10,396 nt of DNA from positions 1 through 10,396 of the forward strand of contig CAMLNG010000089.1 in the NCBI GenBank assembly GCA_946481195.1. Reading direction: 5' to 3'. The notes beneath the pieces were generated by a model. The model saw only the letters and a program-made list of their open reading frames with translations, ran no database searches and was not told where the DNA came from. The DNA comes from an uncultured Chromatiaceae bacterium (GTDB lineage: Bacteria; Pseudomonadota; Gammaproteobacteria; Enterobacterales; Alteromonadaceae). Positions 7,588-10,396 of this stretch are shown here, in pieces. Numbering within the stretch: the first letter of the stretch is position 1; the number at the start of each line of letters is the position of its first letter. The translations under genes were made by a program, and so were the position numbers.

Positions 7588-7730
7588 ACAACTTCTTTTT
7601 GCAGGCGTTATCAAGGATGCACTAATGCAGTGCAGCTTTCTTTTTACTATGCGACAGCAGGCCTGTACCAGCAAGCGAATTTTCGGTAGCTAGTGCTCTT
7701 TCCATTTAATTGTGACCGATTCAGTCGGAA

Positions 7731-7815
7731 TTAAAATGCCCACAGGCGAGGCGGCTGCTTGCAGGTTTAGTGGCGCTAAATCAAAAGCAGGCAACGACGT
7801 CTGTGGGCATTTTAA
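7731..7815. repeat. Left hairpin of the element
   Basis: TTAAAATGCCCACAG at 7731-7745 is the exact reverse complement of 7801-7815 (15 bp). The stem can be extended inward by G7746-T7800, C7747-G7799 and G7748-C7798. The large loop contains a small hairpin (TTTAG / CTAAA, 7766-7780) and the segments that are complementary to the loop of the right hairpin. Confidence 0.8.
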
Positions 7816-7827
7816 ACCGACCCTGCG

Positions 7828-7926
7828 GGCGAGTGTCAGGACCTTCAGGACTGCGTTGCCTCGTTTCGACAGAGCGCCACTATGCCTTCAACGAGCCGCC
7901 TTGCCCTGAAGGCCCTGACGCTCGCT
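7828..7926. repeat. Right hairpin of the element
   Basis: Positions 7828-7849 pair with 7905-7926 over 22 positions, with one mismatch (A7841/C7913) and two G-T pairs. The core is CCTTCAGG (7842-7849) with CCTGAAGG (7905-7912). Its loop carries the reverse complements of three segments in the left hairpin loop. Confidence 0.8.
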
Positions 7927-7960
7927 GAACTCGTCAGAATTAAGTGGAAAGAGCACTGGC

Positions 7961-8309: not shown

Positions 8310-10396
8310 ATGCAGAAAACCAGACTGAGCCGCGCTGTGGCGCAAGTGCTCGGCGTGGCCGTCGGCGTCAGCATGCTCCCGATGACAGGACATGCGCAAC
8401 AAGCCAAAGCCAGCAATACACAAAACGACAAAGACCAGATTGAAGTGATTTCGGTGACCGGTATCCGCCGCAGTATGGAAACCACTATCGACATTAAAAA
8501 AGCCGAAACCGCCATCGTCGAAGCGGTATCCGCTGAAGACATCGGTAAATTACCGGACCAGAGTATCGCCGAATCTTTAACCCGCTTGTCTGGCCTTGCC
8601 GGTCAGCGCGTCAATGGCCGGGTGCAGGTGATTTCAATTCGCGGCCTGGCGCCGGATTTCTCTACCACCACGTTAAATGGCCGGCAACAGGCCAGTGCTG
8701 GTGATAACCGTGCGGTCGAATACGACCAATACCCATCAGAGCTGATAAACGGCGCTGTGGTGTATAAAAGTTCGGACGTCGGCATCGCCGGCATGGGCTT
8801 GTCCGGTACCGTCGATATGCGCACCATCCGGCCGCTGGCGCACGGCGAGCAGGCCGTGGTGTTTAATCTGCGCAGTGAAACCGGCTCTATCGATCAGCTG
8901 CACCCGGAAGTGTCGAAAAATGGCTGGCGCGGCAGTGCGTCTTACATTGACCAGTTTGCCGACGACACTATCGGTGTGGCCATCGGCTACGCCCATATGG
9001 ATACACCGACGCAGGTCCAGCATTACAAAGCATGGGAATGGAATACCGTTGAAAACGCTTTAGCCGGCACCAGTAACGATGACGCGCTGGGTTTGGTCGG
9101 GCAGGAAGTCACAGCGGTAGCACGGAATCAGGTGCGTGACGGCGTGATGGCGGTGCTGGAATACAAACCGAATGACAGTTTCCACAGCATCGTTGATGCC
9201 TATTATTCCAAATTCTCGCAAGATGAAGTGATGCGCGGCGCCATGTGGTTCAGCAACCAGTGGACCGGTGATGGCATGGAGTTTTTAAATCCGCAGTTTG
9301 ATAACTTCGGCGGCACTAAAGTCGTGCGCAGCGGCGTGGCCACCAATATCAGACCCGTGCTGCGCAACGATTTGAACACGCGCGACGATGAACTCAAAGC
9401 GCTGGGCTGGAACAACAAATGGAAACTGGACCGTTGGACCATCGACGCCGACTTGTCTTATTCCGGTTCAGAACGCGACGAGCAGGTGCTGGAAACTTAC
9501 GCCGGTTTAGTGCCAACCGGCAGTTTTGACAACATCGGCTTTGCGCTGGAACCTGAAGGTTTCCCGGTGTACACGCCGGGCATTGATTACACCGACGTCA
9601 ATAAAGTGCAGCTCAGCGACCCGGCACCATGGGGCGGTTGGGGCCATGACGGCGCTATCCGCTTCCCGCATGTCAAAGAAACTATCAAAGAGGCCGAACT
9701 GAATGCGCGTTACGAATTAAGCGACGGCGCGTTCAGCAGCGTTGATATCGGTGCCAACTACACCAAACGGCAAAAAGACAAAGAAGTCGACGACAACGAC
9801 CTGTTCCTGAAAAACAACAGAGCACCGGTCAAAGTCGACCCGTCGTTGCTGGTGTCGCCAACCTCGTTGAGTTTTGCCGGCATCAAAGGCGTGATTTCTT
9901 ACGACATCATGCCGACGGTGAACCGCTACTACGATATCAAACCTATTCTCGACACCAACCGCTGGAATAAAGCCTGGGGCGTCGAAGAAGAAGTGCTGAC
10001 CAGTTTTATCAAACTGAATATCGACACTGAGCTGTGGGGCAAACCGCTGAAAGGCAATATCGGCAGCCAGTTTGTCCGCACCGATCAAAGCTCAAGCGGT
10101 TTCCTTGCCAGCGATTACAAACCGGGCAATCCGTCCACGCTGACTCAGGTTGAAGCCGGTAAAAGTTATAACGACGTGCTGCCGGCGCTGAACCTGTCGA
10201 TGGAAGTACTGGATGACCAGTTTGTCCGGCTGGCGGCCGGTAAAACCATGGCCAGACCGCGGATGGACGAAATGCGCGCCAACATCACCGCCGGGGTCGG
10301 CGTGGATTCACGGCGCTGGAGTGGCAACTCAGGCAACCCTGAACTGGAGCCGTGGCGCGCCAAAGCGCTGGATCTGACGTACGAAGTGTACCTCAA
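8310..10396 (+). CDS. TonB-dependent receptor, TonB-Xanth-Caul (carbohydrate-type), C-terminus cut off
   Basis: Outer-membrane TonB-dependent importer; about 695 residues are visible and the last barrel strands run past the right edge. The signal peptide probably ends at GHA29-Q30. IEVISV (43-48) is the TonB box, followed by TGIRRSM. The plug has the TIGR01782 hallmarks: EDIGKLPDQSIAESLTRLSG, ISIRGLAPDFSTTTLNGRQ, YDQYPSELINGAVVYKSSD and GLSGTVDMRTIRPL. Late motifs FVRLAAGKTMARPRMDEMR and SGNPELEPWRAKALDL confirm the family to the edge. Receptors of this group usually import oligosaccharides or other plant/algal or microbial polymers, sometimes peptides or other nutrients; the substrate here is unknown. 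AAGGA at 8296-8300 supports the ATG, 9 bases before it. It is divergent from the membrane AraC regulator, its likely controller. No Fur box is visible, unlike the first receptor. Confidence 0.92.
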   Translation, partial: MQKTRLSRAVAQVLGVAVGVSMLPMTGHAQQAKASNTQNDKDQIEVISVTGIRRSMETTIDIKKAETAIVEAVSAEDIGKLPDQSIAESLTRLSGLAGQRVNGRVQVISIRGLAPDFSTTTLNGRQQASAGDNRAVEYDQYPSELINGAVVYKSSDVGIAGMGLSGTVDMRTIRPLAHGEQAVVFNLRSETGSIDQLHPEVSKNGWRGSASYIDQFADDTIGVAIGYAHMDTPTQVQHYKAWEWNTVENALAGTSNDDALGLVGQEVTAVARNQVRDGVMAVLEYKPNDSFHSIVDAYYSKFSQDEVMRGAMWFSNQWTGDGMEFLNPQFDNFGGTKVVRSGVATNIRPVLRNDLNTRDDELKALGWNNKWKLDRWTIDADLSYSGSERDEQVLETYAGLVPTGSFDNIGFALEPEGFPVYTPGIDYTDVNKVQLSDPAPWGGWGHDGAIRFPHVKETIKEAELNARYELSDGAFSSVDIGANYTKRQKDKEVDDNDLFLKNNRAPVKVDPSLLVSPTSLSFAGIKGVISYDIMPTVNRYYDIKPILDTNRWNKAWGVEEEVLTSFIKLNIDTELWGKPLKGNIGSQFVRTDQSSSGFLASDYKPGNPSTLTQVEAGKSYNDVLPALNLSMEVLDDQFVRLAAGKTMARPRMDEMRANITAGVGVDSRRWSGNSGNPELEPWRAKALDLTYEVYL

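Follow-up and report, generated by a model that had tools for sequence, protein, structure and literature searches.

The window, that is, the whole stretch of 10,396 nucleotides of DNA that was analysed, contains TonB-dependent receptor genes at 2–1840 and 8310–10394. The genes lying between these two encode a PepSY-TM protein, a TauE-type transporter and a CobW-type GTPase, and the neighbourhood is metal- or cofactor-uptake-like. A palindromic element of approximately 270 bp lies at positions 7690–7959, between the divergent genes of an AraC-type regulator and a TonB-dependent receptor, and consists of terminal inverted repeats of about 35 bp enclosing two long hairpins. With its terminal inverted repeats, a length below 500 bp and the lack of a transposase, the element has the features of a MITE. 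Its sole internal ORF of at least 60 aa has 65 aa (7712–7909) and was rejected as a coding sequence, being merely a product of the mechanical ORF listing.

An inverted-repeat search located the outer arms at 7689–7724/7925–7960 (36 nt, 83%), the stem B/B' of the first hairpin at 7731–7748/7798–7815 (18 nt, 94%), the stem F/F' of the second at 7829–7849/7905–7925 (21 nt, 90%), and a loop-to-loop complementarity, C-D-E/E'-D'-C', at 7745–7801/7849–7905 (57 nt, 75%). The terminal repeats, two hairpins and complementary loops described in the initial annotation are thus all present. The left terminal inverted repeat (7690–7724, + strand) starts with CTAGTGCTCTTTCCA, its outermost bases differing among copies, and the right one (7925–7959, − strand) ends with GAGCACTGG. 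An 11-bp direct repeat is found on the + strand at 7724–7734 (GTCGGAATTAA) and 7933–7943 (GTCAGAATTAA).

Comparison of the two hairpins showed that both are versions of one unit of approximately 100 nt, here called motif M, with u1 at 7722–7821 on the + strand and u2 at 7829–7927 on the − strand. The loops are complementary to each other because both hairpins carry M in opposite orientations; the loops of the two hairpins are alike, and the outer stems, B in one and F in the other, show no sequence relationship. In u1, the conserved internal loop has its 5' side at 7745–7752 (GGCGAGGC; CAAGGC in the family; alignment columns 24–31) and its 3' side at 7793–7796 (AACG; columns 72–75), and the apical hairpin P3, containing TAGTGGCGCT, is at 7764–7782 (columns 43–61), all on the + strand. 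The 5' side of the internal loop of u2 is at 7898–7905 and reads GGCAAGGC on the − strand. The two units are separated by a 7-nt spacer, CCTGCGG (7822–7828); the spacer is 7 nt long in 55 of 68 facing pairs of units and is commonly CCNNNGG. Relatives were searched for with two covariance models, R1 built from seven units, including u1 and u2, and R2 built from 24. R1 matched u1 with 99.4 bits and u2 with 88.8 bits, values obtained for two members of its own training set.

Copies, ends and genomic positions of the elements

The nearest relative of the locus was found in a Rheinheimera MAG (G001), where the AraC-type regulator is 96% identical in a protein scan. At this orthologous locus (L001), only the outer palindrome of about 60 bp exists, and the interior is absent between the 11-bp direct repeat. 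Elsewhere the same genome carries three near-identical copies (L002, L003 and L004) with the same ends in different surroundings, two of which are truncated at the end of a contig. This supports a mobile, multicopy element with terminal inverted repeats. A plasmid collection searched with the element gave no match. Within L002 (G001:C83), at 35–127, a second element with CTAGAGCACC ends lies about 290 bp from a copy of the 7690–7959 type; its interior looks like half of one unit joined to half of the other, and it is apparently a deletion product.

Palindromes of 53–72 bp that lack M and are essentially the element ends alone were also found at L218, L222, L223, L228 and L229, at distinct sites and with other ends. 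Since such shells recur, the interior seems to be commonly lost as one block, and their existence at these five loci and at L001 implies that an element can be present without M.

The results for a sister type with TATACCC ends showed one filled site (L045 in G014) and the same TATA site empty in the seven genomes listed, the best empty site being that of G007, which shows that the element inserted at TATA. The target duplication at L045 is ambiguous, as the target is TATA-rich and the right flank of the empty site differs from that of the filled site by 4 nt; in the 7690–7959 type the outermost bases vary, and no target duplication was evident for the 7690–7959 copy itself. In the genus, TATACCC ends were present in 28 of the 38 elements listed (four of these being single-unit elements), and AGAGCACC and AGTGCTC also occurred. 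Outside the genus, other TATACC forms were seen; of the 22 pairs that were taken from the searches of the class and the phylum, several had CTAG-, AGGG- and further types of ends. The ends TATACCCAAGT were observed at L119, L122 and L129, in three genomes, each time just upstream of a similar cysteinyl-tRNA-synthetase-type gene as judged by eye; perhaps these are the remnant of an old shared insertion.

No autonomous partner with the ends of the 7690–7959 element was found among the loci compared, and the single TATACCC ends inspected in the genus were, by eye, ERIC copies or truncated elements. There was no end pair of transposon size: the elements with both ends measured approximately 262–295 bp or 53–72 bp, and some ends were single (L221, at a contig end, and L224). 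The pattern TAGRGNNTGTTGANNTTT was found in 6 of 10 genomes. Transposases of the PF13340 type were present in 4 of 18 genomes, with one locus showing end similarity: in G001, the terminus of an insertion sequence that encodes a PF13340 transposase agrees at 17 of 23 bases with the end of an M element from G318.

Among 178 matches (83 + 95) there were 68 facing pairs and not a single diverging pair. There were also five same-strand neighbours, among them some for which the model had matched the reverse strand of a unit with a low score. The 42 unpaired matches were those at contig ends, those whose partner was truncated or weak, single-unit elements and reverse-strand matches. None of the 62 distinct elements with enough flank lay inside an ORF of at least 110 aa. 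The flanking genes at these 62 sites were tandem in 26 cases, divergent in 21, convergent in 13 and unresolved in two, and thus the elements have no terminator-like position. A role as transcription terminator was rejected on this lack of convergent preference and on the position of the 7690–7959 element between divergent genes.

Motif M as a conserved structure

Units of M were found widely. With R1, matches were obtained in 13 of 22 genomes of the genus (E ≤ 0.1), 117 of 196 of the family and 105 of 295 of the order (both E ≤ 0.01); with R2, in 123 of 369 genomes of the class at E ≤ 0.001 (112 at E ≤ 1e-6) and in 97 of 398 of the phylum at E ≤ 1e-6. The samples overlap, G001 being in each and the larger ones containing the smaller groups, and the large searches scored the best 10–20 candidates per genome, so that copy numbers are lower bounds; E-values are rough. 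The spread is at the level of the class, and the matches in the phylum sample may all lie in the class Gammaproteobacteria. Most of the distant matches that were checked (10 class loci with 18 matches and 25 phylum loci with 42) contained CAAGGCG..CAACGC or a close variant, and AGGC..AAC was at the expected place in 199 of 238 matches (alignments A2, A3, A6 and A7), the misses including spurious reverse-strand matches and divergent copies. Weak matches were excluded from our claims because plain palindromes reach 25 bits with R1 and R2 (L133). Rfam gave no match at the element up to E 1 and none in the whole window at gathering thresholds; for 40 loci with relatives it returned five rows, all below gathering scores (E 0.11–0.42). 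A known Rfam RNA was therefore rejected.

When the units were aligned without gaps, M appeared as an outer stem P1 that is free in sequence, an internal loop CAAGGC/AAC(G), a stem P2, a loop GNA/RA, and a stem P3 with an apical AGTGG..CT. Already with seven units, 30 of the 40 pairs showed two-sided changes. A sequence-only MAFFT alignment without gaps (A5), restricted to 24 units of 100 nt that are less than 80% identical and leaving out L052, which needed a gap, raised this to 36 of 40 pairs with the internal loops fixed, and 90.0% of the cells assigned to pairs were paired, as compared with 59.5% after shuffling and 33–43% in slid registers. Because R1, the model with which these 24 units were found, favours pairing, part of the covariation may reflect hit selection; the effect size and the fixed unpaired loops argue against hit selection being the whole cause. 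The covariance-model check proposed in the initial annotation thus yielded both homologues and strong covariation, which speaks against the outcome considered there of a decayed remnant. The pairs 29–77, 30–76 and 31–75 of the assumed structure hold poorly (unpaired in 15, 6 and 8 of the 24 units), and the internal loop beside these columns is therefore probably larger than drawn.

Template-switch correction can make the arms of a palindrome co-vary without any function. The possibility exists that the element is an ordinary MITE whose arms are kept complementary in this way, at the DNA level, and whose motif is shared through common descent and hitch-hiking; functionless covariation could then arise, and the near-identical copies within one genome and the absence of copies from longer ORFs fit such an element as well. 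The shell does behave like that of an ordinary MITE, an outcome also foreseen earlier, but the explanation does not cover the conserved cargo. Correction of this kind would be expected to remove internal loops, but the best conserved columns of M include CAAGGC/AAC and parts of GNA/RA; M is moreover widely spread.

The mismatches bear on the same question. On the strand that carries M, the ratio of G-T to A-C was 163:47 in 76 representatives, less than 75% identical and drawn from the 158 of 238 rows scoring at least about 59 bits (G-T more frequent in 59, less frequent in 4 and equal in 13), and 317:128 over 151 distinct rows. The ratio was 22:10 in P1, 11:2 in P2 and 15:6 in P3, and reversed (2:7) in the three columns beside the internal loop. 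In the terminal repeats it was 28:28, counted in the 19 of 38 representative stems that were at least 60% paired. The earlier statement that mismatches in the long stems are mostly G-T hence holds for the hairpin stems across the family and fails for the terminal repeats. Detection with a covariance model favours G-U pairs, and part of the G-T excess may reflect hit selection. Because G-T exceeds A-C on the M strand, M seems, as far as sequence comparison can tell, to be selected as a folded single strand. Taking the fixed loops, the wide spread and the difference between hairpins and terminal repeats (163:47 versus 28:28) together, we regard the ordinary MITE as improbable.

Folding of 7689–7960 as RNA, on both strands as had been suggested, gave −150.4 kcal/mol for the + strand (z = −11.8) and −142.8 kcal/mol for the − strand (z = −11.2). 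None of 200 shuffles was as good for either strand, and thus the fold is far beyond chance.

It had further been proposed that the element is a bistable switch, in DNA or RNA, in which the two hairpins compete with one long C-D-E helix. In the 7690–7959 copy this is feasible: when the extended loop–loop fold was scored by soft penalties, it reached −144.7 kcal/mol as RNA, 5.7 kcal/mol worse than the hairpin fold (11.5 worse as DNA). The gap for the two units alone, 10.8 kcal/mol, is the smallest among 26 elements chosen as representatives of 63. Over these 26, the extended fold of a unit with its own partner (mean −53.8 kcal/mol) was no better than that with a unit of another element (−54.8 kcal/mol; 120 cross combinations, p = 0.86), and the mean of the hairpin fold was far lower (−88.6 kcal/mol). 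In the 10 elements whose two units are both 100 nt long, the units of one element averaged 35% identity at stem columns, as compared with 77% in the core. Since the long loop–loop helix is not maintained in relatives, a maintained bistable fold was rejected, and the switch is a most implausible account of the element.

Putative role of the paired hairpins

On balance, we favour the explanation that the element is a non-autonomous, MITE-like element, and that several kinds of MITE carry M, a conserved hairpin that is probably formed in RNA, as a paired cargo. The explanation starts from what was directly observed, namely the anatomy, the copies at different sites, the filled and empty sites of the sister type, the covariation, the strand asymmetry and the different ends around the same cargo; from these we infer RNA as the molecule, a host factor and a benefit. 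The terminal inverted repeats would serve some transposase in trans, and the interior would be conserved cargo made of two inverted copies of the hairpin. Judging from the sequences, selection seems to preserve the fold of M in a single strand, most probably in RNA that arises when transcription from a neighbouring gene runs through the element. Owing to the inversion of the copies, transcripts entering from the left and from the right alike hold exactly one correctly oriented M, a property absent from the single-unit elements at L023, L024, L034 and L035. M would then be bound by an RNase or some other factor that is widespread among hosts, and would in this way control what becomes of the RNA next to the insertion, which would make insertions tolerable.

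M could also work as single-stranded DNA that is recognised by the machinery of transposition or replication, as REP hairpins probably are by RAYT transposases, the inverted pair providing one M per strand. The strand asymmetry fits a DNA function equally well, and the G-T excess by itself does not tell the two molecules apart, as it could arise in single-stranded DNA too. Inverted hairpin doublets also recall REPINs (PMC3116915). The same M is found in shells with different ends, however, and therefore one end-specific transposase cannot explain it; the shell-only palindromes at several sites and the hairpin length of about 100 nt likewise speak against a function in single-stranded DNA, which we consider unlikely.

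M is a concrete and testable motif, in which fixed internal loops are combined with freely co-varying stems, and which recurs in different shells and in 112 of the 369 genomes sampled from the class and 97 of the 398 sampled from the phylum. It raises the questions of what binds M and whether M-bearing insertions spare neighbouring transcripts. R2 is a model with which such elements can be annotated.

Relation to known repeat families

ERIC-like repeats were first described around 1990–91. ERIC (IRU, RU-1) resembles the M elements in being palindromic and intergenic, and its ends in the genus nearly match the commonest M-element shell there (TATACCC). The TATACCC..GGGTATA ends of ERIC are present in the sister elements but not in the 7690–7959 element (CTAGTGCTC../..GAGCACTGG), and ERIC is a single hairpin of approximately 127 bp, whereas the latter has two hairpins in about 270 bp. 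The genus copies were identified as ERIC by eye, from an ERIC sequence the core of which matches 5375 of 5426 E. coli genomes. AGGCG..CAAC occurred in 12 of 13 ERIC copies, as compared with 84 of 5000 background stretches; the copies form one family and thus count as little more than a single independent observation (p of roughly 0.02). The match extended to a second CAAC in some copies, with a nearer CAAC present by eye. Unfiltered searches with R1 and R2 placed the ERIC copy L124 on the same loop with E-values of 0.23 and 0.12, respectively, which are the best ERIC values and not significant. A kinship between ERIC and M appears likely from these sequence comparisons. At L025 (1501–1595) and L062 (1558–1652) there are palindromes with one hairpin that contain CTCAAGGCG..CAACGC and differ in the apical stem, possibly intermediates between ERIC and M.

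We take the core of the Correia elements (CREE/nemis) of Neisseria to contain CAAGGCG and CAACGC. Like M elements, they are small with inverted-repeat ends, and RNase III acts on the hairpin in their transcripts, according to the accessible part of PMC2649163, which describes no double hairpin. Pae-1 of Pseudomonas, as described in part of PMC2267715, is a pair of adjacent stem-loops and in this resembles M elements, but its model length is 84, versus about 270 bp. The text available from PMC2718517 presents two P. fluorescens repeats as MITE-like, R6 of 177 bp, with inverted ends of 34 bp, and R200 of 320 bp. Going by these partial descriptions, some Pseudomonas repeats (Pae-1, R6, R200) could be M elements.

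As for insertion sequences, the ends of the 7690–7959 element match none that was found. The terminus resembling the M-element end of G318 (17/23) belongs to a PF13340-transposase insertion sequence that we assign to the IS5 family. REPINs and BIMEs consist of two inverted hairpins with a short spacer, as do M elements. REPs are GTAG- or CGTC-tagged palindromes of 20–40 bp according to the part of PMC3733652 available, while M is about 100 nt long with conserved internal loops and lies inside long terminal repeats.

Inverted ends, TA termini and RNase-mediated effects on mRNA are attributed to ERIC, YPAL, Correia and the P. fluorescens repeats in the portions available of PMC10969869, PMC2759123, PMC2267715, PMC2649163, PMC2718517 and PMC2229807, the last a review that describes movement of such repeats as lacking experimental support. 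In this partly covered literature we found neither a shared hairpin core nor the present double form; Pae-1, the P. fluorescens repeats and Zo 2011, on ERIC divergence, might overlap with our results. We tentatively propose, with more doubt than confidence, that M is a structured RNA so far missing from the catalogues, which belongs to the class Gammaproteobacteria and possibly to a wider group and moves as paired, orientation-independent cargo between the shells of unrelated MITEs. ERIC, and perhaps Correia, would then be reduced single-hairpin members, and several classic bacterial repeats would have spread by means of a common RNA motif and the receptor for it in the host.
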